Source of the DNA: a virus
Virus record (IMG/VR): IMGVR_UViG_3300043570_001980
Location: 248,001 to 312,000 of that record
DNA: 64,000 bases
Strand: one strand, 5' to 3'
The translations under genes were made by a program, and so were the position numbers. Below the pieces are notes generated by a model. It ran no database searches. It had not been told where the DNA came from and worked only from the letters and a program-made list of their open reading frames with translations. How positions within the stretch are numbered: the first letter of the stretch is position 1; every line of letters begins with the position of its first letter. Below are positions 35,997-63,087 of this stretch, piece after piece.

Positions 35997-36955
35997 TTGT
36001 TGGCCCATCTTTTCATGTGTCTCCAGCAATGCCCAGATTTAAGTTCACTATGGCTCCAGTGGAATTGACTTATGCGTTTTATCCACGACTCTCGGTCGTA
36101 CATAATAGGATTTTCTATATTTGCTAGATTAATGTTGGCAATTTCTTTGCACTGACTTCGGTCCGGATCAGTAACAAACACCGGAATGCCCTGTAATGCA
36201 GATGCAACTGCAGGACTACTGTTATGATTAACCATGGCCCAACATCGATTAAGGTCATCTTCTAATCTTTCATTGGTGCTAAAATGAACATTAAGCAATG
36301 CTCTTCCTCTACAAAGTTTTAGTAGACGCTCGCAGTATTTTTTTGCTCGTTTGTCTCCAGGGTGAGCTCTTATACGAATACTTCTTTGTGTAAACTTTCT
36401 TAATGTTGTTATGACATTTAGTGCCCAATCAACCACATTCCATCCTGCCATACTCCAACCACCATCTCGTTGAAGACAAATCAAAATATGGTCTCCATTT
36501 TTTCGCCAGGGGCTTAGTTCAACACCAATGGCTTGTTTTATAATCTCCCATCTGATGGGATCTGGTTCATGATCGCAATACTCGCCAGTGGTTGGAAAAA
36601 CTCCATCGTAGCTATAACGCAACCAGTATCCAGGATTGGTAGTGTTTTTGTACAAAAACAAATTGCTATCTGCAATAACAGTTCTACCACCAATGGCTTT
36701 TTGACGATCAATGATTTCTTGTCTAAACGCCAGATGAGCACCAGTTTTACCGTTCTCGTGAACCCAGCCCAATATCATTGCAACATCGGCTGGTTCGTAT
36801 TGCATAGTTTCAATCACCTGTCCTTCATCCCCGACGTTAATTACCCCGTCGATAAAATATCTTAGTGTATTTGCCTTGTTATTTTGTTTTTGCAAAGACT
36901 CAGGTGTGGGCTCTTGTTTCTTAGGCAAGGTTGCTAGATAACTTATAACTTTCAT
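35993..36955 (-). CDS. KpsC/S-like putative glycosyltransferase (paralog 2)
   Basis: A 320-residue protein with the same layout as the genes at 32265 and 36952: GDHILICLQRDGGWSMAGW, RSIRIRAHPGDKRA, CWAMVNHNSSPAVASALQG and NLANIENPIMYDRESW, ending with W...E...GHCW. The N-terminal 90 residues are distinct. The C-terminal signature is like that of KpsC/KpsS capsule transferases, which add Kdo linkers. Function inferred from similarity of pattern only. Confidence 0.6.
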   Translation of the reverse strand: MKVISYLATLPKKQEPTPESLQKQNNKANTLRYFIDGVINVGDEGQVIETMQYEPADVAMILGWVHENGKTGAHLAFRQEIIDRQKAIGGRTVIADSNLFLYKNTTNPGYWLRYSYDGVFPTTGEYCDHEPDPIRWEIIKQAIGVELSPWRKNGDHILICLQRDGGWSMAGWNVVDWALNVITTLRKFTQRSIRIRAHPGDKRAKKYCERLLKLCRGRALLNVHFSTNERLEDDLNRCWAMVNHNSSPAVASALQGIPVFVTDPDRSQCKEIANINLANIENPIMYDRESWIKRISQFHWSHSELKSGHCWRHMKRWANK

Positions 36956-37761
36956 TTTGTCAAAATCCTAAATGCAGTACCATCTCGTAACTCGTCTACA
37001 TGAAACTGCCCATAGGCAAGATGATGTGCCCATGCATGGAGTTTATCTCTATCAGGATAGTAGGGTGTTTCAATCTTGCTGAGATCTGTGTTGCCAACCG
37101 GCATTGCCGCATTTGATGGAGCCAACACAAATGCTGGAACTCCCTGCATGACTGCTTCTGTGGCCGCAACGCTGTTAAATGTTACTAATGCATGGACATC
37201 TCTTGCCAAGATAGCAGATAATGGATTCAATTGTACACGGTCTATTCTTTTTGGCTCACGTTGTCTGATAATAATTGGCCGGTCTGTGTATTTTTTTAAA
37301 GTTGCCACAGTTTCAATGAGCCAGGTTTCCAAATCAATTCCATAAAACTTGCAGGGTTTTTCGTCAGGCGCCGCAACAATTATTACTTTTCCATATTTTC
37401 TTGGGTGCAATTGAATTCGAAGTTTTTTCCATCTATCATCAGGCCTGGGAACTATTTCGTTGTGTTGAAGATCATTTTTTACAATTCTGTGCCAATTCTT
37501 CCACCCTTGCGGATTCTGATCATTTGGTTGATTACCAAAGTAGCCGCTGTCCATGTAATAGAATGTTTTATTATCTTCCCAGCAACTGCGCATAATTTTG
37601 TGTTTTAAAATCCCACGCAGTACCACGGGCCTATCATCAACTACTACATCATAATAATAATCAAAGTCGTCGGAGTTGGTTATTTTTCCTCCGCATCCTT
37701 GGGCAAACATATTGATATATTCATCTTTGCCGTTCTTACTAAGAAATAACCACTCGCTCAT
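36952..37761 (-). CDS. KpsC/S-like putative glycosyltransferase (paralog 3)
   Basis: About 269 residues from the ATG at 37761 that overlaps the previous stop (TAATG); an upstream ATG at 37782 is possible. Shared blocks are RPIIIRQREPKRI, HALVTFNSVAATEAVMQGVP, AFVLAPSNAAMPV and YYPDRDKLHAWAHHLAYGQF. This copy has the fullest version of the NSVAATEAVMQGVPAFV signature common to capsule-type glycosyltransferases. It overlaps the next minus gene by ATGA. Specificity unknown. Confidence 0.6.
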   Translation of the reverse strand: MSEWLFLSKNGKDEYINMFAQGCGGKITNSDDFDYYYDVVVDDRPVVLRGILKHKIMRSCWEDNKTFYYMDSGYFGNQPNDQNPQGWKNWHRIVKNDLQHNEIVPRPDDRWKKLRIQLHPRKYGKVIIVAAPDEKPCKFYGIDLETWLIETVATLKKYTDRPIIIRQREPKRIDRVQLNPLSAILARDVHALVTFNSVAATEAVMQGVPAFVLAPSNAAMPVGNTDLSKIETPYYPDRDKLHAWAHHLAYGQFHVDELRDGTAFRILTK

Positions 37762-38438
37762 TATAATGTCCTTTGTAAACAATACTCAGTGAGTATGCGT
37801 TCTCTGTGCCACTCTTCACTTTGTGGTGTGTCAGCAAACTCGTGGAAGCATGGAGTGCCCAAGGTATAGTGCAAGAGCTTGGCCGCGGGGTTTGGCCCGT
37901 ATTCATCGGGCAACCAATTCCATTCAGGCGGCAGTTCGCCAAGTCGTTCATCATCGATCCAGGTAAATCGATGTAGTTCAGCCCCTGTGGCTTTCTGTAT
38001 AAATCCTGGGGTTAGCTTACGATTAGGAAAACTTCCGCAGTTCCACAAGATAACGCTACTCCAATTTTTTCTAGGATAATCTTCATTTTTTGATCCAAGA
38101 TATTTCTCAGTCATCTTTGTTTTATAATCATGTTTGACTACCAATACATCCTTGTAGGGGTTCTGTAATTCCCATAATTTAGTAATGTCGTCACGCACAA
38201 CCATATCACCATCTATAAAAATGGCCCACCCTGTAAATTGCATCAAGTGCGGCACAAGGAAACGACTGTAGATAAATTGATTGCTACCATCTGTGTGTGT
38301 TTCTTTATAGTCTTTAAATAAATTTAATGCCAGCGGGATAATCTGTACTGGTTGTGTTGCATGCCTAATAATACTATTAGCACAGGTATGAAACGCAATT
38401 GCTTCTCTAGGATCGTATCCTATGAAAATTGGAATCAT
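37761..38438 (-). CDS. GT8-like glycosyltransferase
   Basis: A 225-residue protein starting MIPIFIGYDPREAIAFHTC, the start of GT8-like transferases acting on nucleotide sugars. The DxD is in WAIFIDGDMVVRDDI; NWSSVILWNCG and the C-terminal LLHYTLGTPCFHEF (HxxG-type metal ligand His) are also of this family. Retaining galactosyl or glucosyl transfer is the family norm, but the sugar is not known here. ATGA overlap with the nucleotidyltransferase-cupin gene suggests joint expression. Confidence 0.8.
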   Translation of the reverse strand: MIPIFIGYDPREAIAFHTCANSIIRHATQPVQIIPLALNLFKDYKETHTDGSNQFIYSRFLVPHLMQFTGWAIFIDGDMVVRDDITKLWELQNPYKDVLVVKHDYKTKMTEKYLGSKNEDYPRKNWSSVILWNCGSFPNRKLTPGFIQKATGAELHRFTWIDDERLGELPPEWNWLPDEYGPNPAAKLLHYTLGTPCFHEFADTPQSEEWHRERILTEYCLQRTL

Positions 38439-39190
38439 TTTCTTTCAATGTCCTCTTCGATACAGTTCTCACCGTATTGAATTTCAATTAATTTTAACGG
38501 CTGGTTGGTTTCGTTACACAGCATGTGCCATTGGCCTTTGTCGATAAACACATATTCGTGCAGACCGTATGTGCCAACCAGATCGTGATCACTGCTGGAG
38601 TCTAGTGTATAAACTGCGGCTTCACCTTCAGCAACAAACCAAAACTCTGCACGTTGATCATGACGTTGCATGCTCAAACATGTCTTGGGCGTCACTGTTA
38701 GTTCTTTGAGTTTGGTGTTTGCGCCTACTTCGTGTAACACACGATAGTATCCCCAGGCACGTGAGGTCCGGGGCTTCTTCCAATCCTCGAGAATCCATGA
38801 ACTAGAATTCTTCTTGTCCTCTCCACCAACACCAAACACAAACTCTACGTCATCGAACACCATTTCTGGAATGTTATTCTGGGTACGATCGCCGCCGTTG
38901 GCAAACACAATAGTATCAGTTGGGTAACGTTGTTTGATTAACTCAATTGCATTGCAACTGGAGTTGTCATCATCGTTGTAAACCACAACTTCGTCAACAA
39001 TGCTCAACGCACTGATTAGTTCAAAACGTTCACTCATAGGCATAAAAGGCCTACCTTTTTTACGAGTAAGCCATTCATCAGAGTTGAGTCCGACAATCAA
39101 TATGTCGCCTAGTTGTTTTGCTGATTTAAAGTAAGCAAGGTGCCCGGAGTGTATGGGATCAAACCCACCTGTAACAAGTACGATTTTCAT
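38435..39190 (-). CDS. Nucleotidyltransferase-cupin fusion for nucleotide-sugar synthesis
   Basis: A 251-residue two-domain protein. Residues 1-140 form a HIGH-superfamily cytidylyltransferase-like domain (VTGGFDPIHSGHLAYF, GLNSDEW, and KKGRPFMPMSERFEL in place of the ISSTxxR-type motif), like the nucleotidyl-transferring half of HldE. Residues about 165-250 form a type II mannose-6-phosphate isomerase cupin (MQRHDQRAEFWFVAEGEA, then EYVFIDKGQWHML). Together they suggest an enzyme making or trimming NDP-mannose or heptose-like sugars. This domain pairing is unusual. It is the first gene of the minus-strand run, with a late promoter. Confidence 0.75.
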   Translation of the reverse strand: MKIVLVTGGFDPIHSGHLAYFKSAKQLGDILIVGLNSDEWLTRKKGRPFMPMSERFELISALSIVDEVVVYNDDDNSSCNAIELIKQRYPTDTIVFANGGDRTQNNIPEMVFDDVEFVFGVGGEDKKNSSSWILEDWKKPRTSRAWGYYRVLHEVGANTKLKELTVTPKTCLSMQRHDQRAEFWFVAEGEAAVYTLDSSSDHDLVGTYGLHEYVFIDKGQWHMLCNETNQPLKLIEIQYGENCIEEDIERK

Positions 39191-39195
39191 AGAAA

Positions 39196-39203
39196 TATTT
39201 ATC
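39196..39203 (-). promoter_or_regulatory. Late promoter GATAAATA for the minus glycan operon
   Basis: On the minus strand GATAAATA ends 5 nt before the ATG at 39190, predicting a leaderless start for the five-gene minus operon. Confidence 0.55.
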
Positions 39204-39217
39204 TATGTATATTATGG

Positions 39218-39223
39218 TAAATA
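39218..39223 (+). promoter_or_regulatory. Late-type element TAAATA for the plus glycan genes
   Basis: GGTAAATA with TAAATA at 39218-39223 lies 4 nt before the ATG at 39228, facing away from the minus-strand promoter 15 nt to the left. Confidence 0.5.
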
Positions 39224-39227
39224 TAAT

Positions 39228-39809
39228 ATGGACCACTTTTATCAAGACATAGACGGATTTATGAGCGTTAGAAACACAATCATGCTTGACATGGTGTTAG
39301 AACAATTTCCTAAAAAAGGCACATGGGTTGAGCTAGGATCATGGACAGGTCGTAGCGCGGCATATTGTGTGGTTGAGTTAATCAATCGAGATAAACTAGG
39401 TGAATTCTATTGTGTAGACAGCTGGCAGGGCGAAACTGACATAGCATACGATCAAGGCGTGATACAGGACATGGAAAATATTTTCCGTAAAAATGTCAAT
39501 CCAGTGATAGATTCAATTACCATGTTGACCATGATGAGTTGGGCCGCCGCAGAAAAATTCAAAGATGAATCTGTGGATTTTTGTTATGTGGATGCTGGAC
39601 ATAGTTACGAAGCAGTAACAAAAGATCTCACTGCATGGTGGCCAAAACTGTGCCCTGGTGCCATGTTTGGTGGTGATGACTACACAAAAGGTTATCCAGG
39701 AGTGCAACAAGCAGTTTGGGACTTTTTTGGACCAATGAATATAAAAGTACGCAGATCAGGACGTTGTTGGTTGGTCACAAAACCAACAGCCGGTAATAAT
39801 TTAATTTAA
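39228..39809 (+). CDS. Class I methyltransferase (Methyltransf_24-like)
   Basis: About 193 residues from the ATG at 39228; an earlier ATG at 39153 would run back through the opposite gene and the promoter region. TWVELGSWTGRSAAYCV is motif I, FYCVDSWQGETD motif II, and SVDFCYVDAGHSYEAVTKDL the VDAxHxYxxVxxDL block of Methyltransf_24 enzymes, which act on sugars and small hydroxylated molecules. MFGGDDYTKGYPGVQQAV follows as in this family. Start of a four-gene + strand run. Confidence 0.8.
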   Translation: MDHFYQDIDGFMSVRNTIMLDMVLEQFPKKGTWVELGSWTGRSAAYCVVELINRDKLGEFYCVDSWQGETDIAYDQGVIQDMENIFRKNVNPVIDSITMLTMMSWAAAEKFKDESVDFCYVDAGHSYEAVTKDLTAWWPKLCPGAMFGGDDYTKGYPGVQQAVWDFFGPMNIKVRRSGRCWLVTKPTAGNNLI

Positions 39810-39816
39810 ATAAAGA

Positions 39817-40455
39817 ATGAAACAAGACTGGTTAGAGTTTTACCGAAAAAACTATTACAATTTATTAAACCCACGTGTTAGCGCAATAAAGCGAGGGTTA
39901 GTCGATGGCTTATATCAAAGAGCACACGGATTTAACATTATGTTTGCTGAACTGGTAACACGCGGTCAAGATCAGTATCATATAATTGAAACTGGCACTC
40001 TACGAAATCCCGGAAACTGGAAAGACGGCCAGAGTGCAAAATTATTCACTGAATTTGTGGACATTCACAACGGATCTGTAAGGTCAGTAGATATTGATCC
40101 GGGTGCATGTTCCTCAGCATCAGCCGCAATACGGTCCAAGAACTTTACAGTTACCTGTAGTGACAGCGTAACTTGGTTAAGCAAACAACCAGATTTATCT
40201 ACAGTTGATTTGTTCTACTTAGATTCGTGGGACGTCAAGTGGGAAAATGATCTGGACAGCGCCGAGCACCATTTAAGCGAATTTAAGGCAATTGAACCTT
40301 ACTTGAAATCTGGATGTATTGTGGCCATAGATGACAACAGTAGATTCAAAAACACAAACCAAAGAACTGGCAAAGGTCGTAGGATTGTTGAATACCTTGA
40401 GTCAAAAGGTAAACACCCTGTATACGACGAATACCAAATAATTTATAAGTTTTAA
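39817..40455 (+). CDS. Methyltransferase-like protein
   Basis: A 212-residue protein with a methyltransferase-type core: HIIETGTLRNPGNWKDGQ (motif I-like), SVDIDPGACSSASA (acidic motif II), and VDLFYLDSWDVKWENDL (motif IV-like). CIVAIDDNSRF follows as in Methyltransf_24 relatives. The N-terminal 40 residues are basic and aromatic. It lies between a clear methyltransferase and a GT17 gene; substrate unknown. Confidence 0.7.
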   Translation: MKQDWLEFYRKNYYNLLNPRVSAIKRGLVDGLYQRAHGFNIMFAELVTRGQDQYHIIETGTLRNPGNWKDGQSAKLFTEFVDIHNGSVRSVDIDPGACSSASAAIRSKNFTVTCSDSVTWLSKQPDLSTVDLFYLDSWDVKWENDLDSAEHHLSEFKAIEPYLKSGCIVAIDDNSRFKNTNQRTGKGRRIVEYLESKGKHPVYDEYQIIYKF

Positions 40456-40456
40456 A

Positions 40457-41248
40457 ATGATCATCGATACCTTATTGTTTAACAACGAATTTGACATGCT
40501 AGACATACATCTAGCCATTACCAACCACTATGTAGATCGCTGGATAGTGTTGGAAGCAAGTAGAACATTCAGTGGCATTGAAAAACCCTACCACCTGACT
40601 GACAATTTGAAAAAGTACAATGAAAAGTATCCGGGAAGAATACAAGTAATTCAACAACCACTGACTGCTGATCAAACCAACCTAATCTGCGAAACCACAA
40701 TGAGACAAGGATTTAAAACTGCACTCAGCAGTTGCAGTTTGGATGATATTGTTATTCACGGAGACCTTGACGAAGTCATTGATCCAACCAAGTGGAGTAA
40801 AATTCTTAATCAGATGGATCAACATAATCGGCCAGTGAGTTGTGGATTTGATATGTATATGTACCGAGTTGATCAACGTGCAGATCGTGGCTGGAAAGGT
40901 AGTGTAGTTGCCAGGCGGCGCATGTTTGAAACACCACATGACTTATACAAAGGCGACCGAGCAGTGGTCAAAAGAAAAAACCGCAATCATTGTGTTGGCA
41001 TAAACGAATCAGTTGGTTGGCATTGGACCTGGATGGGCAGTGACGATCTAATAAAAAACAAAGTGATTAGCTGTATTGAAAGTCAGCACAGAGATCCCGA
41101 ACAAGTACTACATGCTTTTAAACAGTTAGACACAATATCAGCTATCAATCACAAGTGTACTACTCATGTTGTGCCTACTGTGTATCCTGATCCTGTACAA
41201 CAAGTATTACAACAATATCCACACTTCTGGCATAACCCACCTTTATGA
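40457..41248 (+). CDS. GT17-family glycosyltransferase
   Basis: A 263-residue protein that starts MIIDTLLFNNEFDMLDIHL and continues VDRWIVLEASRTFSGIEKP, the distinctive N-terminal pattern of GT17 (beta-1,4-N-acetylglucosaminyltransferase family). The DxD equivalent is VIHGDLDEVIDPTKW. Later WHWTWMG is a conserved type of GT17 block. GT17 proteins are scattered in phages and giant viruses. It would add a sugar, possibly GlcNAc, to a glycan. ATGA overlap with the next glycosyltransferase. Confidence 0.82.
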   Translation: MIIDTLLFNNEFDMLDIHLAITNHYVDRWIVLEASRTFSGIEKPYHLTDNLKKYNEKYPGRIQVIQQPLTADQTNLICETTMRQGFKTALSSCSLDDIVIHGDLDEVIDPTKWSKILNQMDQHNRPVSCGFDMYMYRVDQRADRGWKGSVVARRRMFETPHDLYKGDRAVVKRKNRNHCVGINESVGWHWTWMGSDDLIKNKVISCIESQHRDPEQVLHAFKQLDTISAINHKCTTHVVPTVYPDPVQQVLQQYPHFWHNPPL

Positions 41249-41964
41249 CCACAGTTGACTGTGCATGTTTGATACATGGAGACAAATATAACTGGTCCTA
41301 TGTTGATACTTTATACCATATGATCTGTAGAAACGTCAGCATGGACGTACGGTTTCATGTTTACACAGAAGCTTCTCGTGGTGTACCGTCACCTTTTATC
41401 AAACACGAATTAATAGATTGGCCAGGAGTTTCTGGACCTAGACAAAGTTGGTGGTACAAGTTACAACTTTTTAACCCTGAACATTTTCAAGGCAGAATGT
41501 TGTACCTAGATCTTGACACCGTTATATTTGAAAACATAGACTGTTTATGGAGCGATAGTAGCAAGTATTTTTGGACAATTAAAGATTTTAAATACCTATG
41601 GCGTGATTGGGCAGGAATTAACTCAAGTTTAATGCTTTGGGACACAGTTAAATTTAGCTACATCTGGAACGATTTTTTGACACAAGATCTGTCAGACGTA
41701 ATAAAAAAATACCCAGGAGACCAAGATTATTTGTCCGCAATATTAAACCCAAGAGACATACGGTTTTTTGACAGTAATTTAATTAAAAGCTGGCGCTGGC
41801 AGTTGTTGGACGGAGGACTTGATTTTAAAACAAGAAAATACCGTCGACCAGGCGCAGGCACATTGTTAGACCCCACAACACGTATTGCTATTTTTCACGG
41901 AAATCCCAAACCTCATGAAATTACTGACCCGGTTGTGCAGAAGTTCTGGATCAAGTATAAATAA
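41245..41964 (+). CDS. GT-A-type glycosyltransferase
   Basis: A 239-residue protein with the DxD in RMLYLDLDTVIFENI (about residues 88-102) and the C-terminal AIFHGNPKPHEI that supplies the metal-binding His in this phage-type family. The middle has GINSSLMLWD, the acceptor-side loop. The family is common in aquatic phages and resembles GT8 and capsular transferases. Last gene of the glycan run; a late promoter overlaps its end. Confidence 0.8.
   Translation: MTTVDCACLIHGDKYNWSYVDTLYHMICRNVSMDVRFHVYTEASRGVPSPFIKHELIDWPGVSGPRQSWWYKLQLFNPEHFQGRMLYLDLDTVIFENIDCLWSDSSKYFWTIKDFKYLWRDWAGINSSLMLWDTVKFSYIWNDFLTQDLSDVIKKYPGDQDYLSAILNPRDIRFFDSNLIKSWRWQLLDGGLDFKTRKYRRPGAGTLLDPTTRIAIFHGNPKPHEITDPVVQKFWIKYK
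41956..41963 (+). promoter_or_regulatory. Perfect late promoter TATAAATA
   Basis: TATAAATA overlaps the stop codon of the last glycan gene and lies 21 nt before the ATG at 41985, which has a TTGGAGATAA ribosome binding site. Confidence 0.75.
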
Positions 41965-42818: not shown

Positions 42819-43850
42819 ATGACGCAAGTACTCGTTCGTAGCGGTAACTACCGCAAACAAACTGTTCGTGGTGTTACTTTTACACTAGTTAAAGACTACA
42901 CACAAGGCGCTCGAGGTGGCTTTGTGACAGTAGAAAGCAATGGCTACTTTGGCGCAGAACACAATGTGGTACGCATCAAAGTTGATAGCATTCAAGATAT
43001 AGAAATTGTTGGAGATAACATGCCCAGTGTAAAAGAAACTAAGGTAGTAGAATTTAAACATACTGCTCCGGTGGAAACCGAAGAGCAAGCAATGGATCGT
43101 ATTCGTGAGCGATTTGATATCCTGCACGACATGACCAAAGCCTGTGTCAGCGGCGATATCCGTGCTATGATTGTGAGCGGCCCACCCGGCGTAGGCAAAA
43201 GCTTTGGTGTGGAGCAAGAAATTGACAAGGCCTGCTTGTTTGACAAATTGGCTAGCAAACGACTTCGTGCCGAGGTAGTTAAAGGTAGTGCCACTCCAAT
43301 TGGTTTGTATCAAACACTTTACAAATTTAGTGACGCCAATTGCGTAGTTGTTTTTGACGACTGTGACAGCATCTTGTTAGATGACGTTGCTCTTAACTTG
43401 CTCAAGGGTGCCCTGGACTCCGGCAAGAAGCGTACTATTTCATGGCTGTCAGAGTCTAGTGCTTTGCGTCGTGAAGGTATCCCAGACCGTTTTGAGTTTA
43501 AAGGTAGTGTTATCTTTATTACAAACTTAAAGTTTGACCAAATGAAATCGCAAAAATTGCGGGATCACTTGGACGCATTGCAAAGTCGTTGCCACTATCT
43601 GGACTTGACCCTGGACACCATGCGTGACAAACTGTTGCGCATCAAACAGATTGCCAAAGATGGTGTGTTGTTTGCAGACTACGACTTTAACGAGTATGCA
43701 CAAGATGACATTATTGACTTTATGCATGTCAACAAAGAACGCCTGCGTGAGGTAAGTCTGCGTATGGCGCTGAAGATTGCAGACTTGCGCAAGAGCTTTC
43801 CTAACAACTGGAAGCGCATGAGCGAGACAACATGTATGAAGAGTGCCTAA
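42819..43850 (+). CDS. AAA-type ATPase
   Basis: A 343-residue protein. Residues 1-75 form a small N-terminal domain (GNYRKQTVRGVTFTLVKDYT). The ATPase domain has Walker A GPPGVGKS (121-128) and Walker B VVVFDDCDS (177-184), then a sensor 1-like VIFITNLKF and an arginine-rich segment (LQSRCHYLDL). It is not T4 gp44 by pattern; such ATPases act as chaperones, replication or transcription helpers in phages. Two strong sigma-70 promoters suggest early, abundant production. Followed by a terminator. Confidence 0.8.
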   Translation: MTQVLVRSGNYRKQTVRGVTFTLVKDYTQGARGGFVTVESNGYFGAEHNVVRIKVDSIQDIEIVGDNMPSVKETKVVEFKHTAPVETEEQAMDRIRERFDILHDMTKACVSGDIRAMIVSGPPGVGKSFGVEQEIDKACLFDKLASKRLRAEVVKGSATPIGLYQTLYKFSDANCVVVFDDCDSILLDDVALNLLKGALDSGKKRTISWLSESSALRREGIPDRFEFKGSVIFITNLKFDQMKSQKLRDHLDALQSRCHYLDLTLDTMRDKLLRIKQIAKDGVLFADYDFNEYAQDDIIDFMHVNKERLREVSLRMALKIADLRKSFPNNWKRMSETTCMKSA

Positions 43851-45158: not shown

Positions 45159-45700
45159 ACATTATTTGTTACACAGGAGGAACTTGCGGTCATGTGTTAG
45201 CGGCCATAATAGATTCCACCAACTGCAAATTATCAAAAACAGCAGTTAGGATGCCTGCAGAAAGATGTCGTCTAAATAAACCTCACACCTTTTTAAATGA
45301 TTTAGAAAAAACTCAGTATGTACAAAACATTAGTTTAGTGTATAATAGCTTACCCAGTCATGATTTAACCTATCATGTTAGTGCTGGTCAAGATTTTATT
45401 ACTGTTACTGTAAATAAATTTGACACAGCATTGTGGGCCGCAGAAAGATTTAAACAGTTGCACAGACCAAATGTGTGGGAAGAGATGCAACAGTTTTGCG
45501 GTGCAAATGACGTTGCAGGATATGCAAAAACATTAATAGACTACTCTAATATGGTAAAGACACATACAAAAAAGATTGTTACACTTGAACGCATACTATC
45601 GGGGTATGCCGTTGAGGATCTTGCTAACTATGTAGAATCACCTGAACTGGATAATAACTTTTACCAAGAATGGCTGAAACTACAAAACTATGCAGGCTAA
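45155..45700 (+). CDS. Unknown protein with N-terminal GGTCGH motif
   Basis: About 181 residues from the GTG at 45155, which overlaps the previous stop (GTGA) and has a GGGAG ribosome binding site 8 nt upstream; a TTG at 45140 is less likely. The start NIICYTGGTCGHVLAAIID has the strand-Gly turn-helix pattern seen in the proteins at 4752 and 27892. The rest is mostly helical (TALWAAERFKQLHRPNVWEEM). It overlaps uvsW by 11 nt. Confidence 0.6.
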   Translation: MNIICYTGGTCGHVLAAIIDSTNCKLSKTAVRMPAERCRLNKPHTFLNDLEKTQYVQNISLVYNSLPSHDLTYHVSAGQDFITVTVNKFDTALWAAERFKQLHRPNVWEEMQQFCGANDVAGYAKTLIDYSNMVKTHTKKIVTLERILSGYAVEDLANYVESPELDNNFYQEWLKLQNYAG

Positions 45701-47156
45701 ATTAATAATCAGAGACGAAGTAAATTTAAAGATTGAAGGACTTGATTTAACTGCTAGGCGTGCCTTAGTAAATAAATTCAAGTTTGATGTTCCTTATGCA
45801 CGATATCTACCAGCGGTAAGACTGGGCAGATGGGATGGTAAGGTCAGCTTCTTCCAACTAGGTGGCAGTACCTATGTAAATCTACTGCCTGAGATCATTC
45901 CCATCCTAGAAGACTACAACTACGACATTGACGTAGAGGATTTGCGCGAATATCGTACCACCTTTGATTTTACGCTAGTCAAGGAAGATACCTTTGCTGA
46001 AACAAATTGGCCCAAGAATCATCCGATGGAAGGCCAACCAATTATGTTGCGTGACTATCAGGTAGAGATAGTCAACAACTTTTTACAAAACCCACAATGC
46101 ATACAAGAAGTGGCCACAGGCGCAGGCAAGACAATTATGACTGCGGCTATGAGTTACAGCATACAACAATACGGACGTAGTATTATCATTGTTCCCAACA
46201 AAGACCTAGTGAGACAAACAGAAAAAGATTACATTAATCTTGGACTTGACGTTGGAGTATATTTTGGAGACCGAAAAGAGTATAACAAGACACACACAAT
46301 CTGTACCTGGCAGAGTCTAAACAACATGATGAAGAACACCAAGTCCGGCGAAGCAGAAGTTAGCATTGGGGATTTCATTGAGGGTGTGGTGTGCGTTATT
46401 GTAGATGAAGTACACATGGCCAAAGCAGATGCACTAAAAACGTTGTTGACCAGTGTTATGTCTGAAGTGCCAATTCGGTGGGGATTAACCGGTACAGTTC
46501 CCAAGGAACGATTTGAATTTGAAGCATTGCATGTTAGCCTTGGACCAGTTATTAGTAAGTTGGCCGCCAGTGAATTGCAAGACAGGGGTGTGCTGGCACA
46601 ATGTCATGTGAACATTGTACAGCTAGTTGATCATGTTGAATACAGCAATTACCAAAGTGAGTTAAAATACCTACTAGAAGAATCAGGCAGGCTAGATACA
46701 ATTGCCAGCTTAGTTAAACAGGTCAACGAGACTGGTAACACATTGGTTCTGGTTGACCGTATCAGTGCAGGACAATCACTGGCCGATCGTCTTGGGGACA
46801 AAGCAGTATTTGTTTCGGGCGCAACCAAAGGTACAAAAAGGCAAGAACACTATGATGAAATTGCAGAATCAACAGGCAAAATTATTGTTGCCACTTACGG
46901 GGTGGCGGCGGTTGGTATTAATATACCACGAATCTTTAACTTGGTGCTGATTGAGCCCGGAAAAAGTTTTGTAAGGGTTATCCAATCAATTGGTAGGGGC
47001 ATTAGAAAAGCAGAAGATAAAGACCATGTTCAAATTTGGGACATAACCAGTACCTGCAAATTTGCAAAGCGGCACATGACCAAACGAAAACAGTTTTACA
47101 AAGAAGCCAACTACCCATTCTCTGCTGAAAAATTAGAATGGATGACCATCAAGTAA
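45690..47156 (+). CDS. uvsW: UvsW, DNA/RNA helicase
   Basis: A 488-residue SF2 helicase. A small N-terminal domain (LTARRALVNKFKFDVPYARY, VRLGRWDGKVSFF) matches that of T4 UvsW. Walker A is EVATGAGKTIMTAAM, motif II VIVDEVHMA, motif III GLTGTVPK, and motif VI QSIGRGIRKAE. T4 UvsW (about 500 aa) unwinds R-loops and branched DNA, switching from origin- to recombination-dependent replication and driving fork regression. The ATG overlaps the preceding gene. Confidence 0.93.
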   Translation: MQAKLIIRDEVNLKIEGLDLTARRALVNKFKFDVPYARYLPAVRLGRWDGKVSFFQLGGSTYVNLLPEIIPILEDYNYDIDVEDLREYRTTFDFTLVKEDTFAETNWPKNHPMEGQPIMLRDYQVEIVNNFLQNPQCIQEVATGAGKTIMTAAMSYSIQQYGRSIIIVPNKDLVRQTEKDYINLGLDVGVYFGDRKEYNKTHTICTWQSLNNMMKNTKSGEAEVSIGDFIEGVVCVIVDEVHMAKADALKTLLTSVMSEVPIRWGLTGTVPKERFEFEALHVSLGPVISKLAASELQDRGVLAQCHVNIVQLVDHVEYSNYQSELKYLLEESGRLDTIASLVKQVNETGNTLVLVDRISAGQSLADRLGDKAVFVSGATKGTKRQEHYDEIAESTGKIIVATYGVAAVGINIPRIFNLVLIEPGKSFVRVIQSIGRGIRKAEDKDHVQIWDITSTCKFAKRHMTKRKQFYKEANYPFSAEKLEWMTIK

Positions 47157-48103: not shown

Positions 48104-48536
48104 ACTAAACATCAATAATGAAATGCGCCAGCTTGATACCAAGAATCGTAATTTCTATGATAGTTTAACTCCGGAAGAATTAAAAAAGTTCAGCAACTAT
48201 CTTATGATACGTTGGGGTAGTAGTGTTGAGGATAGCAGTGAGATACAAGCATACTATGTGCGTAGTTGTAATCATTACTTAAACAAACATTTTTTTGCTA
48301 TAAACAAACATCCCAAACTTCAGTGGTTGTGTGCCACTGCTATTAGTCCTGACCTAGGAACACCACGACATCCTTGGATTGCTCCAAAGAAAAAAGAAGC
48401 AGGTGCTGGAAGTATTAAGAAGCAGTTGGCAGAATTATATCCAACCAAAAAAATGGACGAGATAGAATTGCTTAGTAAGTTAATTACTAAAAAAGAACTA
48501 GATGAATACGTTAAAGATCACGGTCAGGAAAAATGA
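48093..48536 (+). CDS. 62: Clamp-loader small subunit (gp62-like)
   Basis: About 147 residues from the ATG at 48093; a TTG at 48087 is less likely. The segments NRNFYDSLTPEELKKFSNYL, NKHPKLQWLCATAISPDLG and RHPWIAPKKK match gp62 of marine T4-like phages. With gp44 it loads the sliding clamp gp45 onto DNA; gp44 and gp45 are not in this window. T4 gp62 is 187 aa. The ATG overlaps the previous stop region; the next gene starts by ATGA overlap. Confidence 0.78.
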   Translation: MSDKLNINNEMRQLDTKNRNFYDSLTPEELKKFSNYLMIRWGSSVEDSSEIQAYYVRSCNHYLNKHFFAINKHPKLQWLCATAISPDLGTPRHPWIAPKKKEAGAGSIKKQLAELYPTKKMDEIELLSKLITKKELDEYVKDHGQEK

Positions 48537-49207
48537 CATACCAATGCCAGTATTGTAAAAAAGACTTTTCTAGAGAAAGTAGTTTGGCAGTACACGTCTG
48601 TGAACAAAAGAAACGTAGACAAGATCAGAATGAACGTGGAGTCCAACTGGGATTTCAAGCATATTTAAAATTCTACGAAGTCACACAAGGGTCAGCTAAA
48701 TTAAAAACATTTGATGACTTTGCTGATAGTTCGTATTATCGAGCATTTGCTAAGTTTGGCAGATACTGTGTAGATATTCGAGCAATCAATCCTGCAAGGT
48801 TCACCGAATGGGTGGTTAAACAAAATAAAAAACTTGATTATTGGTGCAAGGATACTATCTACACAGAATACCTGTTATGGTATCTTAAAATTGAGTCTGT
48901 TAATGATGCATTGGCCAGGTCTATTGAACATAGTATTGACTGGGAAGAGAAGAATGGTCATGCATCAAAAGATTATCTAAGATACGGTAACACTAATATA
49001 ATTTGTCATGCAATTACTACTGGCAAGATCAGTCCCTGGGTAATTTACAACTGTGACAGTGGCCGGGAGTTCTTAAACGGACTTGATGAAAAACAAATTG
49101 CAATGATATGGTCATACATTGACGCAGATGTATGGCAACAAAAATTTAAAGATTATATGGCAGATCAAGAATACGCCAAGGACATTTTATCAAAGGCAGG
49201 ATGGTAA
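48533..49207 (+). CDS. Zinc-finger protein of unknown function
   Basis: A 224-residue protein with an N-terminal C2H2-like finger (CQYCKKDFSRESSLAVHVC), then a basic region (QKKRRQDQNERG) and a mostly helical body (YRAFAKFGRYCVDIRAINPARF and others) with many Tyr and Trp. The size and place in the replication operon are reminiscent of the T4 helicase loader gp59 (217 aa), but the sequence does not match it. It overlaps gp62 and the DnaE-like gene. Confidence 0.65.
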   Translation: MTYQCQYCKKDFSRESSLAVHVCEQKKRRQDQNERGVQLGFQAYLKFYEVTQGSAKLKTFDDFADSSYYRAFAKFGRYCVDIRAINPARFTEWVVKQNKKLDYWCKDTIYTEYLLWYLKIESVNDALARSIEHSIDWEEKNGHASKDYLRYGNTNIICHAITTGKISPWVIYNCDSGREFLNGLDEKQIAMIWSYIDADVWQQKFKDYMADQEYAKDILSKAGW

Positions 49208-49806
49208 TGAGCGCAGATATCGACATTGACTTTGCTGACAGAGAAACAGTATTAAAATTAGTAAAGCACATTCCTGCACGACAATCAGTTAATGAACAAG
49301 TGCGTCGACACAACAGTGGTGTTTACGTTACTGATATTCCATTCGATCCAGTGAATCAGTGTGCTGCCATAGACTATGAAGAAGCCGAACAACGTGGTTA
49401 CTTTAAGATAGACTTTTTAAACATGAGTGTTTATCAGTTGGTTAAAAGTCCTGAACATTATGATCAAATGATCAAAACTGCACCTCCATGGACAAGACTA
49501 TGGACAGATAACGCATGGGCTTCTCGGTTGGTACACGTCGGAAACTATACAGAATTGTTAAAGTCGATGCAACCAGATTCAATAGCTAGGATGGCTGCGT
49601 TTATCAGTATTATTAGGCCAGGAAAAGCACACTTACAAAATAAAGATTGGAACACAGTCTTTGCTGGTGTGTGGGACGGAGATGATAGTCGCGGGTACAC
49701 GTTTAAAAAATCACATGCAATTAGCTATGCTGTGTTAGTTGCCCTACACATGAATTTGCTACACGAAGCAGATCAACTTGAAAAATTAATCAATCTTTCT
49801 GACTAG
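49207..49806 (+). CDS. Small DnaE-like protein (polymerase III alpha motifs)
   Basis: About 199 residues from the ATG at 49207 (TAATG overlap); an ATG at 49201 adds two residues. Five blocks occur in the same order as in the C-family polymerase DnaE: DIDIDF (residues 4-9, the two catalytic Asp of the palm), HNSGVY (35-40, like HAAGVV), FKIDFL (66-71, third Asp), SIIRPGK (134-140, like ALxRPGP) and FKKSHAISYA (166-175, like FNKSHAAAYA). DnaE itself has over 1100 residues; fingers, PHP and clamp-binding parts are missing. Whether it polymerises is unknown; it could be a cofactor or a decoy. Confidence 0.65.
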   Translation: MSADIDIDFADRETVLKLVKHIPARQSVNEQVRRHNSGVYVTDIPFDPVNQCAAIDYEEAEQRGYFKIDFLNMSVYQLVKSPEHYDQMIKTAPPWTRLWTDNAWASRLVHVGNYTELLKSMQPDSIARMAAFISIIRPGKAHLQNKDWNTVFAGVWDGDDSRGYTFKKSHAISYAVLVALHMNLLHEADQLEKLINLSD

Positions 49807-50976: not shown

Positions 50977-51710
50977 AATTTAAAAAAATTGTTGGATTTG
51001 GGGACAGTTGGGTCTGGGGCGACGAGTTAATTGATCCAGAGTTGTTAAAACACAATTCTGATGCGCATCCAAGTCTAGTAGAGAATACGTCTTATCGTGA
51101 ACGAAAATGCTTCCTGGGATTACTTGGTAGACATTATCAATTGCCCACAAAAAACTTTGGCATACCCGGCGGCAGTTTACAAAGCACCATGTGGACTTTT
51201 TTGTGGTGGTTACGCAACGAACCCAGTCCCGAAGAATGTATTGTTCTAGTAGGATTAACCGAAGGTAGTCGAATGAGTTTTTATAACCCTAGTCATGAAA
51301 CTTACCCTAATGCTCCTACGTGGGATAGATTTGTTCACAGTTCGTGGGTACATGCTGGAGTCCAAGACGGTGCTGTGACTCGCGAATGGACCGATATGAT
51401 TAAACGATACATGGTACTGAGTGAAAGTGATCCATTGTCAATGCTAAACTACGAACAAGCGTTGTACTTTTTTGATGGTGTGGCAGCCAGAAGAAATCTA
51501 CCAATGTTGATCTGGGACATAAGCCCGCCACAAGAAGAAATTACAGTTCCTTCTAAGATATTGCCAGGATTTAATTTTGTACATTGGCTACGACGACATC
51601 CAAACGAAATGGAATTAACGTTTCCGGGCGGCCACCCTAATGAAAACGGACACATAATACTGCGAGATATGTTGCAACAAGAGATAGATTGTGTTATAAT
51701 GTCTAAGTGA
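50973..51710 (+). CDS. SGNH/GDSL-like hydrolase domain protein
   Basis: A 245-residue protein starting KKIVGFGDSWVWGDEL, a GDSx block I of SGNH hydrolases, with NFGIPGGSLQS as block II (catalytic Gly) and GHPNENGHIILRD at the C-terminus supplying catalytic Asp/His-type residues. It resembles the protein at 5369. Such enzymes remove or add acetyl groups on glycans. It follows a baseplate-type gene, so a virion-borne esterase is possible. Its stop overlaps the primase start (GTGA). Confidence 0.65.
   Translation: MKFKKIVGFGDSWVWGDELIDPELLKHNSDAHPSLVENTSYRERKCFLGLLGRHYQLPTKNFGIPGGSLQSTMWTFLWWLRNEPSPEECIVLVGLTEGSRMSFYNPSHETYPNAPTWDRFVHSSWVHAGVQDGAVTREWTDMIKRYMVLSESDPLSMLNYEQALYFFDGVAARRNLPMLIWDISPPQEEITVPSKILPGFNFVHWLRRHPNEMELTFPGGHPNENGHIILRDMLQQEIDCVIMSK
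51672..51700 (+). promoter_or_regulatory. Sigma-70 promoter for primase
   Basis: TTGCAA (51672-51677), 17 bp, TATAAT (51695-51700), inside the end of the SGNH gene. The GTG start at 51707 is 6 nt beyond the -10, predicting a leaderless mRNA. Confidence 0.6.
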
Positions 51711-52696
51711 TAGACATAATCAATTACCTGCCTGCTAAAAGAAAAACTAGTCCACAGGGCTGGACTAGTTTTAATGCTGTGTGTTGCACCCATAATGGTA
51801 ACTCACAAGACAAACGTGGCCGAGGCGGCATCAAAGTCACCGACCAAGGTTGGAGTTACCACTGCTTCAATTGCGGCTACACAGCTAGCTTTGTACTAGG
51901 GCGTACTTTAAGTTTTAAAGCCAAACGATTGCTAGGTTGGATGGGTGTGCCGGACAACGAGATTGAAATGCTCAATCTTGAAAGTCTAAGACATCGCAAC
52001 ATACACGGAATTTTAGAAGATAGACAACGAGTATCCAACACACTGAGCGCAATTGAGTTTGGTGAGTCCGATGACTTTCCGCCTTACGCAGAAGTAGTTA
52101 CTCCAGAATTTCCAACATACTGGGACTACATCCGCCATCGCGGCGTGCCAGAAGATTTTCCTGTAATGACTTCTATCAAGACTGATGGAGTTCATTGGAC
52201 CAGACCGTATGTGTTGATACCGTTTACATACGACAACAAAGTAATAGGTTGGTGTGCTAGATTCTTAGATAACAAGATTCCCAAGTATATCAATCATAGC
52301 CAACCGGGCTATGTATTTGGCACAGACCTACAACATAATGACTGGCAGTATGTGATTGTTACAGAAGGTATATTTGATGCACTAAGCATTAGCGGCCTTG
52401 CACTAATGCACAACACCATCAGCGACAGTCAAGCTAGACTGATACGTAGCTTGGGCAAGGAAGTAGTTGTGGTTCCGGACCAAGACACAGCAGGTGTAGA
52501 ACTGATTGACCGTGCTGTAGAATTAGGATATAGTGTTAGTATACCTACATGGCCAGACGACTGTAAAGACGTTAATGATGCAGTGATAAAGTTGGGCAAG
52601 TTAGGAGCCTTGCTAACTATTATGCAAGCAAAAGAGACCAGTAAGATAAAAATTGAAATAAGGAAAAAGCAACTTGTTAAAAGATTACGGACTTGA
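51707..52696 (+). CDS. 61: DNA primase (gp61-like)
   Basis: A 329-residue primase starting at a GTG that overlaps the previous stop. The N-terminal zinc site is CCTHNG...CFNCGY; the TOPRIM domain includes VIVTEGIFDALSI (catalytic Glu) and EVVVVPDQDTAGVEL (the DxD). It makes RNA primers for lagging-strand synthesis together with the gp41 helicase, whose gene follows with a 23-nt overlap. T4 gp61 is 342 aa. Confidence 0.88.
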   Translation: MIDIINYLPAKRKTSPQGWTSFNAVCCTHNGNSQDKRGRGGIKVTDQGWSYHCFNCGYTASFVLGRTLSFKAKRLLGWMGVPDNEIEMLNLESLRHRNIHGILEDRQRVSNTLSAIEFGESDDFPPYAEVVTPEFPTYWDYIRHRGVPEDFPVMTSIKTDGVHWTRPYVLIPFTYDNKVIGWCARFLDNKIPKYINHSQPGYVFGTDLQHNDWQYVIVTEGIFDALSISGLALMHNTISDSQARLIRSLGKEVVVVPDQDTAGVELIDRAVELGYSVSIPTWPDDCKDVNDAVIKLGKLGALLTIMQAKETSKIKIEIRKKQLVKRLRT

Positions 52697-54116
52697 TGTC
52701 CAACGATTATTCCTAGAGATGATGTTAGAAGACGCATCGAGTTATGTGCGTGTTCAAAATATTTATAACCCAGCAAACTTTGACAAGAGTTTGAGACCTG
52801 CGGCTGAGTTCATTAAAGAACACTCAGACAAGCACAAGACCATGCCAGACAGGCTGCAGATTTCAGCCACCACAGGCGTTAAACTTGCACCAGTGCCGGA
52901 CTTGAACGAAGGTCATTACGATTGGTTCATGGGCGAGTTTGAATTGTTTACTAAACGTCAGGAACTTGAACGTGCTATTCTTAAATCAGCAGACTTGTTA
53001 GAAAAAGGCGAGTTTGAACCAGTTGAGAAACTGATCAAAGATGCTGTGCAGATTAGTTTAACCAAAGACATGGGCACAGACTACTTTGCTGATCCTGCGG
53101 CTCGCATCAACAAATACTTTAATTCAGGTGGACAAGTGTCAACAGGATGGCCACAACTGGACAAGTTGTTGTATGGTGGATTCAGTCGCGGTGAACTAAA
53201 CATCTTTGCAGGTGGATCAGGATCTGGCAAATCACTTGTGATGATGAACATTGCATTAAACTGGTTGCAACAAGGTCTCAGTGGAGTATACATTACACTA
53301 GAACTTTCGGAAGAGCTTACTAGTTTAAGAACAGATGCTATGTTAACCAGCATGAGTACCAAAGACATCCGCAAAGACATTGACACTACTACAATGAAGG
53401 TTCGCCTGGTCAGTAAAAAATCTGGTCAATATCGAGTCAAGGCATTGCCGGCACAGAGCAACATTAATGATATCCGCAGTTATGTCAAAGAAGTGCAGAT
53501 ACAAACAGGTATCAAAATTGACTTTATGATGATTGACTATCTGGACTTGTTGATGCCTGTTAGTGCAAAGGTCAGTCCAAACGATTTGTTTGTAAAAGAC
53601 AAGTATGTGAGTGAAGAACTACGAAACTTGGCCAAAGAGCTAGGTATGTTAATGGTAACAGCGTCACAGTTGAATCGTAGTGCTGTGGAAGAAATTGAGT
53701 TTGATCACTCGCACATTTCAGGTGGTATTTCCAAGATTAATACTGCTGACAACGTGTTTGGTATCTTTACGTCACGTGCTATGAAAGAGCGTGGCAAGTA
53801 TCAGATCCAGTGTATGAAAAGTCGTAGTTCTACAGGCGTAGGACAAAAGATTGATTTGGAATACAACATTGAAACCATGCGTATTACTGACCCAGGAGTG
53901 TCTGACAACGATAATTTCCGTGGCGGTGCAAAACCTAGTATCATGGACTCATTCAAAACAAAAAGTACAGTAACTGACAATACGGCTGAAACCACATCAT
54001 CAACTAAATGGGAAAGGCCTACAGGAACACCAGCATGGGAACAACCACCTAAGGTATCAGCTGATGTGCAAAGTGCCAAATTAAAACAACTGTTGGGACA
54101 AATTAAACAGTCATGA
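52674..54116 (+). CDS. 41: Replicative DNA helicase (gp41-like)
   Basis: A 480-residue DnaB-type helicase beginning at a TTG with an AAGGA ribosome binding site. Walker A is NIFAGGSGSGKSLVM (about residues 175-190), preceded by STGWPQLDKLLYGGFSRGEL; Walker B is FMMIDYLDLLMPV, and VTASQLNRSA is the motif H3 region. T4 gp41 is 475 aa. It forms a hexamer on the lagging strand and works with gp61. The acidic/Ser-rich C-terminal 60 residues are likely flexible. ATGA overlap with the radical SAM gene that follows. Confidence 0.92.
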   Translation: MLKDYGLDVQRLFLEMMLEDASSYVRVQNIYNPANFDKSLRPAAEFIKEHSDKHKTMPDRLQISATTGVKLAPVPDLNEGHYDWFMGEFELFTKRQELERAILKSADLLEKGEFEPVEKLIKDAVQISLTKDMGTDYFADPAARINKYFNSGGQVSTGWPQLDKLLYGGFSRGELNIFAGGSGSGKSLVMMNIALNWLQQGLSGVYITLELSEELTSLRTDAMLTSMSTKDIRKDIDTTTMKVRLVSKKSGQYRVKALPAQSNINDIRSYVKEVQIQTGIKIDFMMIDYLDLLMPVSAKVSPNDLFVKDKYVSEELRNLAKELGMLMVTASQLNRSAVEEIEFDHSHISGGISKINTADNVFGIFTSRAMKERGKYQIQCMKSRSSTGVGQKIDLEYNIETMRITDPGVSDNDNFRGGAKPSIMDSFKTKSTVTDNTAETTSSTKWERPTGTPAWEQPPKVSADVQSAKLKQLLGQIKQS

Positions 54117-55249
54117 AATACTGCCCGGATGTTTGGAAAAGTTTATACATAGAGAAAAAATCTAAAAATACAATCGGTGTGGGATTTTGTTGTCAAAATC
54201 AGGTTGTTTACATTCCGGCCAATATAGAAGAGCTTCGCTCAACTATAGAAAAAAAACAACACGATTTTAAAAACAATTCAGAACCGACGCAATGTAACAA
54301 TTGCTGGAGAATTGAAAAAACTGGATCACCCAGTCGCAGGCATGCTTCGATTGATTGGTTTGATAATAATCAGATAGATAATAATACCGACAACAAACTA
54401 ATATCTCTAGATTGGAATAGTGAAAATGTTTGCAATCTTGCATGTATTTCCTGTGGCCCAAAGTATAGCAGTCGCTGGCGTCAAGAAATTTTAAATTATA
54501 GTTTTAACAACCTGTCGTCAGAAAAATATATTAACAATCTTAAAGATAATAAATTTTGGAAATCGTTAGATTTGCGCCATCTTAAAAGATTATATTTTAA
54601 CGGAGGCGAACCGTTGATGAATTCTGATCACAAAGAAATATTGTCTCATCTAAGAGAGATAGGACAGTTATCAGAACTTGAGCTTTCTTATAATACCAAC
54701 GGAACAATTATTCCCAACGACGAAGTATTAGATTATTGGAAAAATGTTGGACTACTGAGAATTTCTATTAGCATAGATGCAACTACTCAAGCTTTTGATT
54801 TTATACGTTGGCCCGCCAAATGGGAGCAAATTTTAACTTTTATTGAATTTATAAATCAGCAATCATTTAATATCATTATTGATATAACTTGCACAGTTGG
54901 CATCCACAATATTTTAGAAGTTGATAAATTAATTGCATGGCAAAAAACTAATTTATCAACCAATGCGCAAGGAGATCCAGTAGGTCTTAATTTTCAAATG
55001 GCTGGCCCAATCAGCCACGGTGGAACTGTACTAAAATTAAATACTATCAGTAAAAATCTTGCCACATGCATATTACCGCAATTAATTGAAATAAAAAAAT
55101 ACGGCATCTGGTCAGCCATTGAGAATAGCTTATTAAATGCCAACGGTAATGACTTGTGGGTTGAGTACTTAGATGAACTGTCTGCTCGACGACATATTAA
55201 CTGGAAAGATCAGTTACCAACATTGGCAGAATCATTGAGAATTTCTTAA
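54113..55249 (+). CDS. Twitch-type radical SAM protein
   Basis: A 378-residue protein. The SAM cluster motif is NVCNLACISCGPK (C-x3-C-x2-C, about residues 104-115), followed by LYFNGGEPLM (GGE motif) and LSYNTNGT. The N-terminus has GFCCQN and CNNCWRIEKTG, extra Cys for a second cluster, as in SPASM/twitch-type enzymes that modify peptides. The same layout occurs in the convergent gene 55254-56315. Substrate unknown; the partner peptide is not evident. It overlaps the helicase gene by ATGA. Confidence 0.82.
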   Translation: MKYCPDVWKSLYIEKKSKNTIGVGFCCQNQVVYIPANIEELRSTIEKKQHDFKNNSEPTQCNNCWRIEKTGSPSRRHASIDWFDNNQIDNNTDNKLISLDWNSENVCNLACISCGPKYSSRWRQEILNYSFNNLSSEKYINNLKDNKFWKSLDLRHLKRLYFNGGEPLMNSDHKEILSHLREIGQLSELELSYNTNGTIIPNDEVLDYWKNVGLLRISISIDATTQAFDFIRWPAKWEQILTFIEFINQQSFNIIIDITCTVGIHNILEVDKLIAWQKTNLSTNAQGDPVGLNFQMAGPISHGGTVLKLNTISKNLATCILPQLIEIKKYGIWSAIENSLLNANGNDLWVEYLDELSARRHINWKDQLPTLAESLRIS

Positions 55250-55253
55250 ATTA

Positions 55254-56315
55254 TCAAAACAAATTAACAAGTTCTGGCAGATAGTCTTTGATTAAGATAT
55301 TCTTTGAAGAATCTTGTAATTTGATATTTTCCAACATTAAATTAAAATTTTGTTGGTCTTGGTCTGTGTGTACTGCCCCCACAAACATGTTATAGTCCAT
55401 TGGTCTGAGCTTTTCTTTAAGCACTTGTTTGATGTCTGCGGACAAGGCTCTCGGTTGTAACCATTTTGGATTATAAATTGGATTTACAGAATATACTATA
55501 TTATTTTGGTCAAACCATTTTTTTGTTTGGTTATGGTACAGCACATTCAAGTTACTTAATGTGTAATTTGAACTAACATTTTTTGAAATTTCTTTAAAGA
55601 ATTGAAGATTTTGGTTCAGCTGGTCCCATTTCAATGGAAATCTGAGATACTCGAACACAGGTCCGACTCCGTCGATACTGAGAGAAAAATTAAGATTTTT
55701 AAATTTTGACAGTATTCTTTTTTGTTTATCTGACAGTACAACACTTCCGTTTGTTATCATACTTACAAATAGTTGATCGTTACCTGTATCAATTAAATGT
55801 TCTAATAATTCGAAGTTTTTCTTTTCGTACAGCGGTTCACCACCTAGCAAACTTAGCATTTTTAATTCTTTAAAATCTACATCTTGTTTGATTTTTTCTA
55901 TGTCAATGAATTTGTATTTTTTAATTGGTATAGTTGGGTCTGTCTGACGATCGAGTTGTGCCCAACTACTACTGGCTCCGGCGCCACAGCTTACACAGGT
56001 AGCATTACAGGTGTAACTGGTTGTTAATTTTAGTATGCGGGTAGGAGTAATACCGTGTGTGGCATCTTGTATGATTTTTGTTAAGTCTTTATCCCAATAA
56101 AAATCTAAAGATTTGTTTTTAACCTGACGATCACTTTTTAAACCTTGATCTTCCAATGACCAGCATTTTTGACAAGCAGATGATCTTTGACCAGATAATA
56201 AATCTTTTTTAATTTCTTCAAGATTGTGATTCTTGGGCAATAAACAACAGGGTGTTTTGTTATTGTTATAATCAATTTCTTTACTAAACCACGGTAATAC
56301 GCAAAATGTATCCAT
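55254..56315 (-). CDS. Twitch-type radical SAM protein, convergent copy
   Basis: A 353-residue minus-strand protein related in layout to its neighbour: N-terminal TPCCLLPKN and ACQKCWSLEDQG (extra Cys), SAM cluster SYTCNATCVSCGAG (C-x3-C-x2-C), LLGGEPLYEKK and MITNGSVVLS. The family resembles radical SAM proteins of cyanophages and pelagiphages annotated without function. It ends 5 nt from the stop of the gene at 54113. A late-type -10 (TAAATA) lies 4 nt before its ATG. Confidence 0.82.
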   Translation of the reverse strand: MDTFCVLPWFSKEIDYNNNKTPCCLLPKNHNLEEIKKDLLSGQRSSACQKCWSLEDQGLKSDRQVKNKSLDFYWDKDLTKIIQDATHGITPTRILKLTTSYTCNATCVSCGAGASSSWAQLDRQTDPTIPIKKYKFIDIEKIKQDVDFKELKMLSLLGGEPLYEKKNFELLEHLIDTGNDQLFVSMITNGSVVLSDKQKRILSKFKNLNFSLSIDGVGPVFEYLRFPLKWDQLNQNLQFFKEISKNVSSNYTLSNLNVLYHNQTKKWFDQNNIVYSVNPIYNPKWLQPRALSADIKQVLKEKLRPMDYNMFVGAVHTDQDQQNFNLMLENIKLQDSSKNILIKDYLPELVNLF

Positions 56316-62971: not shown

Positions 62972-63087
62972 TAGAAAAATTATTACAAAACAAGATCCTG
63001 TTAGTAACAACAGGATTATTGAGCACATACTTATTGTATAAGATAAGTTTAGAGCTATGGTGCATAGCCTACGGAATATTAAATTAA
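62968..63087 (+). CDS. Very small membrane protein
   Basis: A 39-residue frame starting at an ATG that overlaps the previous stop (ATGA). It is hydrophobic: MIEKLLQNKILLVTTGLLST then YLLYKISLELWCIAYGILN. One or two membrane helices. An 8-bp hairpin (ATCCTGTT...AACAGGAT, 62995-63016) lies within it. Coding status is plausible from coupling and composition but unproven. Confidence 0.45.
   Translation: MIEKLLQNKILLVTTGLLSTYLLYKISLELWCIAYGILN

Follow-up and report, generated by a model that had tools for sequence, protein, structure and literature searches.

Why should a T4-like jumbo phage that encodes a full B-family DNA polymerase also carry a short gene resembling the alpha subunit of bacterial DNA polymerase III (DnaE)? 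The question is raised by an open reading frame of 199 residues in a window of 64,000 nucleotides, taken from a phage record of 341,990 bases (bases 248001-312000). An earlier inspection of the letters alone (the sequence-only reading) had noticed five polymerase motifs in this protein in the same order as in DnaE, considered a second polymerase core of the C family unexpected next to gp43, and proposed that the protein could be a reduced polymerase, a decoy for the host replisome or a structural leftover. The protein is referred to here as the C-half, and the partner described below as the N-half.

A DnaE-Like Protein of 199 Residues

The reading frame, the positions of the motifs (Table 1) and a shuffle test agreed on a DnaE-like protein with five polymerase motifs ordered as in DnaE. 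The five patterns were also found in order in E. coli DnaE, which served as the positive control, and they were found in order in none of the other reading frames of the 64-kb window and in 0 of 100,000 shuffles of the C-half protein. The three catalytic Asp positions that had been pointed out are present as D4, D6 and D69, and D8 corresponds to D405 of E. coli DnaE. The start codon of the C-half overlaps the stop codon of the gene upstream, an arrangement that is usual in phage operons.

Table 1. Coordinates of the C-half, its motifs, its neighbors and its proposed partner (positions in the window, except those that begin with G000:C1, which refer to the whole record)
Feature	Position	Strand	Remarks
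UvsW-like helicase, island marker	45690..47156	+	profile and synteny
PHROG 11058, 224 aa, N-terminal C2H2 zinc finger	48533..49207	+	upstream neighbor in 79/81 loci; Cys/His ligands invariant
C-half of split minimal DnaE, 199 aa, PHROG 11778	49207..49806	+	ATG 49207, stop 49804-49806; both metal-binding motifs, palm II strand, fingers remnants
DIDID motif, residues 4-8	49216..49230	+	D4, D6 = E. coli catalytic D401, D403; invariant in 57/57 homologues
HNSG motif, residues 35-38	49309..49320	+	= E. coli H511-G514; follows the missing thumb directly; H35, G38 invariant
K-I-D, residues 67-69	49405..49413	+	D69 = third catalytic Asp (E. coli D555), K67 = K553; both invariant
RPGK, residues 137-140	49615..49626	+	= E. 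coli finger motif R639-P640; R137, P138, K140 invariant; hmmsearch and hhalign to DnaE
FKKSHAISY, residues 166-174	49702..49728	+	= E. coli F756-K758-H760; F166, H170, Y174 invariant
PHROG 11637, 132 aa	49786..50184	-	convergent, about 20 bases of overlap with the 3' end of the C-half; 76/76 loci
DNA primase (Toprim, gp61-like), island marker	51707..52696	+	profile and synteny
DnaB-like replicative helicase (gp41-like), island marker	52674..54116	+	profile and synteny
N-half, 174 aa	G000:C1:53315-53839	+	outside the window; GRGS
B-family polymerase, 886 aa	G000:C1:91397-94057		gp43-like; PHROG 262, 8.7e-192

Single-sequence searches of the PDB and Pfam with the C-half were weak (the Pfam finger match of the C-half by itself was sub-threshold at 0.073), and profiles and structure were used instead. 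The C-half matched PHROG 11778, annotated as "DNA polymerase," at 3.8e-55 and PHROG 405, the full-length phage DnaE family, at 7.4e-08. For the HNSG region, hhalign aligned the C-half to residues 508-642 of DnaE. Using tblastn, residues 18-146 matched a full-length Ignavibacteriales DnaE with 25% identity and an E value of 6e-7, which is relative to the candidate stretches only.

A Probable Distant Partner Gene and the Position of the Split

When the rest of the record was searched with the Pol III alpha profile PF07733, a single other site was found (G000:C1:53618-53833, 1.6e-8). It lies in the open reading frame of the N-half, which is located 244 kb from the C-half gene on one and the same 342-kb phage contig and carries the nucleotide-binding motif GRGS of DnaE. 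The N-half matched PF07733 at 5.7e-08, above the Pfam cut-off, and PHROG 11127 at 5.1e-39.

The N-half terminates with ...WGVGRGSSVASYVLYLLEVHQVDSLHYDLDPTEFLR and a stop codon. Its end aligns to residues 349-393 of E. coli DnaE and the C-half aligns from residue 401 onward; thus, the two halves abut with no overlap and no motif omitted, and the split is located in the short loop that connects the GRGS loop with the DxD strand. The N-terminus of the C-half, MSADIDIDF, corresponds to SMPDFDVDF at residues 398-406 of the E. coli protein, of which the N-half covers residues ~274-393 and the C-half ~399-775. By eye, the segment WYMP...YKNLDI of the N-half probably corresponds to the start of the E. 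coli palm (YFLPQFP...). Residues 1 to ~77 of the N-half (G000:C1:53315-53545) have no recognized relative and are not a PHP domain, and model confidence is low around residues 57-61. Judged by these alignments, the N-half and the C-half together rebuild the C-family palm, whose catalytic motifs GRGS, DxDxD and KxD are complete only when both proteins are combined. The proposal of a reduced polymerase is supported with one amendment: the C-half alone is a C-terminal half, and the GRGS half is encoded by a separate, distant gene.

Conservation and Selection

Among 57 diverse C-half homologues with identities to the query down to 33%, the invariant residues are D4, D6, D8, H35, G38, K67, D69, R137, P138, K140, F166, H170 and Y174. 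Conservation of the catalytic Asp among homologues, by which the sequence-only reading had suggested that its assignment be judged, was complete in the 57 C-halves. The chance that 11 motif residues would all fall among 22 invariant positions is ~2e-12. In the N-half, G140, G142, R143, G144 and S145 are invariant among 82 homologues. The median dN/dS is 0.10 for the C-half and N-half genes alike, a sign of strong purifying selection and an indication that neither half is decaying.

Relatives of the C-half were found in at least 581 IMG/VR stretches and in 91 GenBank phage records, and a search of plasmids for relatives gave no match. Three relatives (L300, L301 and L302) come from archaeal and Rickettsiales MAGs, on contigs of small size. 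Misbinning of phage contigs is the probable explanation, as L302, the one checked, carries the same phage island; a fourth match besides these three is a true bacterial DnaE. A TAG noted within one homologue proved to be the ordinary stop codon of the gene.

Predicted Structures and Missing Domains

The AlphaFold2 models, with input alignments built from loci outside the annotated phage collection, gave pLDDT values of 93.8 for the C-half and 85.4 for the N-half. Foldseek returned Pol III alpha as all 13 of the 13 best PDB matches of the C-half model (best E 1.6e-4, probability 1.00); the structures superpose in part (query-length TM 0.57, with an rmsd of 9.7 for an alignment with gaps). The predicted structure resembles Pol III alpha and not an unrelated fold, as expected from the motif-based assignment to DnaE. 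For the N-half model, the 15 best PDB matches were likewise all Pol III alpha or PolC, with weak E values (best 0.054), and for some PDB entries the superposition reaches 2.9-3.1 A across ~90 columns.

Even when combined, the two halves are without the PHP domain, the thumb, most of the fingers and the clamp-binding, OB and C-terminal domains. In place of the thumb, the C-half has 18 residues (17-34) from the DxD helix to HNSG, compared to roughly 88 (~423-510) in E. coli DnaE, and fewer than 30 residues separate RPGK from FKKSH in the fingers, compared to about 110. The C-half ends after the KSH helix. When the whole E. coli DnaE was searched against the record, the N-half was the only match and no further Pol III alpha domain was found, while a finger profile matched the C-half gene only, and no PHP domain was found in 10 genomes (the source phage and nine relatives). 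Of the features of C-family polymerases, the thumb, full fingers and tandem HhH/clamp-binding domain are absent here.

Co-Occurrence and Gene Neighborhood

In 32 large jumbo-phage records reached from either half, among them 121Q, GAP32, Paride, XaC1, XacN1, Munch, Atu_ph07, Phosso and SCTP-2, the N-half is present in 32/32, the C-half in 30/32 and a B-family polymerase in 32/32. Each half has one strong match per record, and the two records without a C-half are short contigs of 214 and 262 kb. The B-family polymerase itself occupies two separate open frames in Atu_ph07 (L087; 418 + 578 aa) and in Paride (L089; 825 + 379 aa), and split polymerase genes of two families may therefore co-exist in these phages.

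The C-half gene is part of an island with a conserved order. Upstream, in loci with room for each gene, are uvsW (56/58), PHROG 11279 (66/70), PHROG 11758 (76/77) and the zinc-finger protein (79/81); downstream are the convergent PHROG 11637 (76/76), a structural-like protein (63/68), the primase (47/48) and the helicase (38/39). XacN1 is an exception in which only part of the island is kept. Downstream of the N-half gene are a GroES-like gene (46/46) and the clamp loader gene gp44 (42/44), which is about 241 kb from the C-half. These conserved neighbors, uvsW, primase and helicase for the C-half and gp44 for the N-half, place both halves in replication gene clusters. The C-half had been assigned to a gp62-primase-helicase region; a primase and a helicase are indeed nearby, together with uvsW, but gp62 was not found nearby.

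The zinc-finger protein encoded immediately upstream (PHROG 11058) has invariant C5, C8, H21 and C23 and a conserved domain of ~190 aa, and is a candidate third partner. Its identity as a gp59 helicase loader is not claimed, as the match to PHROG 269 was weak (0.0046) and a PDB profile search returned essentially zinc fingers.

Elsewhere in the window, an AAA ATPase of PHROG 1250 at 42819-43850 (+) has a weak DnaC-like helicase-loader match. Two genes on opposite strands beside the helicase (54113-56315) have cysteine motifs that, by eye, suggest radical-SAM/SPASM enzymes. Also by eye, a long gene block at 30540-41964 resembles methyltransferases, glycosyltransferases and sugar-nucleotide enzymes, and the product of 63057-63482 (+) resembles an IscU-type iron-sulphur scaffold protein, which is unusual for a phage.

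Proposed Function and Alternative Explanations

In DnaE and PolC, it is established that the GRGS loop binds an incoming nucleotide by its triphosphate and that two metal ions are coordinated by the three Asp. We consider it probable that the C-half forms the C-terminal, catalytic part of a minimal C-family core made of two subunits, which would carry out distributive, short synthesis within a T4-type replisome. The homology, the complementarity of the halves, their co-occurrence, conservation and synteny and the predicted folds are results of computation; physical association and catalysis of the two halves are what we infer.

The proposed mechanism has several elements. First, the N-half would supply palm I with the triphosphate-binding GRGS loop, and the C-half would supply the DxD motif, the third Asp and the finger remnant. 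As GRGS and the three Asp sit on different chains, the enzyme could work only if the chains meet. Second, the halves would associate non-covalently to form one active site that is cut in the loop just before PDxDxDF; the co-occurrence and the matching ends make association the simplest reading. Third, with no thumb, few remains of the fingers and no part that binds the clamp, the enzyme would be weakly processive and probably distributive. The pair would thus make short stretches of DNA, for example in primer extension or gap filling, within the replisome of the B-family gp43, gp44, gp41/61 and UvsW, and gp43 would do the bulk synthesis. Given a full B-family replicase in the genome, our best guess is that short synthesis near the primosome or in repair would be the likeliest job.

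A more specific version, which we prefer among such jobs and regard as rather unlikely, is that a thumbless two-subunit polymerase of ~370 residues extends gp61 RNA primers briefly and then hands over to gp43. If true, phages would have a counterpart of the hand-off from DnaE to PolC or from Pol alpha to Pol delta, and the pair would be among the smallest C-family polymerases known. More generally, if the pair polymerizes, it would be a naturally minimal polymerase of the C family, with an active site that is split and assembled in trans without protein splicing, which is rare, and two unrelated polymerase families would share the work in one phage, as they do in many cells. The proposal is easily testable, as the two proteins are small and relatives are found in culturable phages of E. 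coli (121Q) and P. aeruginosa (Paride and Callisto).

Templated synthesis is not assured because the parts that hold the primer-template in DnaE, the thumb and most of the fingers, are missing. The assembled pair might retain its Pol-beta-like fold and metal site and yet perform no templated DNA synthesis, serving the B-family replisome as a sensor or regulatory subunit or acting as a nucleotidyltransferase with another substrate. The Pol-beta-like fold serves many non-polymerase reactions, no clamp-binding domain was seen, and the full B-family polymerase found in all 32 records would fit such a role. However, RPGK and F-K-x-H...Y, which are near the nucleotide or template in DnaE, are invariant or nearly so together with the metal ligands, and both halves lie within replication gene clusters; we give this explanation a limited chance.

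According to the decoy hypothesis, the fragment would bind the clamp, tau or epsilon of the host and poison its polymerase. DnaE binds epsilon through its PHP domain, the clamp through its HhH/C-terminal regions and tau through its C-terminal regions. All of these are absent from the pair, in which only palm and finger remnants are present, while the active-site residues are kept; a decoy could do without an invariant metal site and without a GRGS partner conserved alongside it. The hypothesis, for which only the resemblance to DnaE and the shortness speak, is therefore not supported and is very unlikely to be correct. The loss of most DnaE domains would also be expected if the C-half were a relic, the decaying remains of a dnaE gene of host origin, as in the leftover proposed earlier, but this is contradicted by the low dN/dS, the large number of related stretches and phage records, the invariant active site and the immediate neighbors that are fixed in 76-79 of ~80 loci, and we regard it as extremely unlikely. 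Finally, rejoining of the two products by a split intein, as in cyanobacterial DnaE, is scarcely conceivable: in nearly all N-half homologues the chain terminates within about 1-4 residues of EFL[RK], and in the C-halves DxDxD is preceded by 3 to about 20 residues, which leaves no room for intein pieces at either end.

Comparison with Known Systems

Iyer et al. 2021 (PMC7824862) described, from sequence, a split minimal Pol III in "group 2.2" jumbo phages and suggested it as a model of ancestral Pol III. The pair of the source phage is a further member of this split minimal Pol III already described in outline, because every feature tested fits that description. The two-part architecture, with distant genes and no other Pol III domains here, and the genome type, a T4-like jumbo phage with a B-family polymerase, are the same, and there is no essential difference, PHROG 11127 being the N-half and PHROG 11778 the C-half. 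Newly computed here are the exact position of the break, the conservation of residues, the synteny and the counts of co-occurrence. Thus, a second C-family core beside gp43 is unexpected when compared to phage T4 but not when compared to this literature. Other genome papers annotated single halves only (e.g., Atu_ph07 gp316), and a literature search, largely of journals open without subscription, found no laboratory study of the split minimal Pol III.

Compared to bacterial DnaE (1160 aa in E. coli), the phage version shares the palm core, with GRGS, DxDxD, KxD, RPG and FxKSH in order, and the predicted fold. However, it is split in trans into 174 + 199 aa and is without the PHP domain, thumb, most fingers, HhH/clamp-binding, OB and C-terminal domains. 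Full-length phage DnaE (PHROG 405, e.g., in Gordonia and Mycobacterium phages) is likewise a phage-borne C-family polymerase; while its members are single chains of ~1000 aa, the pair here is reduced, split and found beside a gp43-like polymerase. In other phages, the match positions of PHROG 13169 (463 aa) and PHROG 12219 (823 aa) suggest a larger DnaE broken near the GRGS/DxD loop, possibly an intermediate of the minimal split form. Cyanobacterial DnaE is likewise encoded by two distant genes, with a break near the KSH motif; in contrast, the phage pair has no intein, is broken before the DxD motif and is missing the remaining domains.
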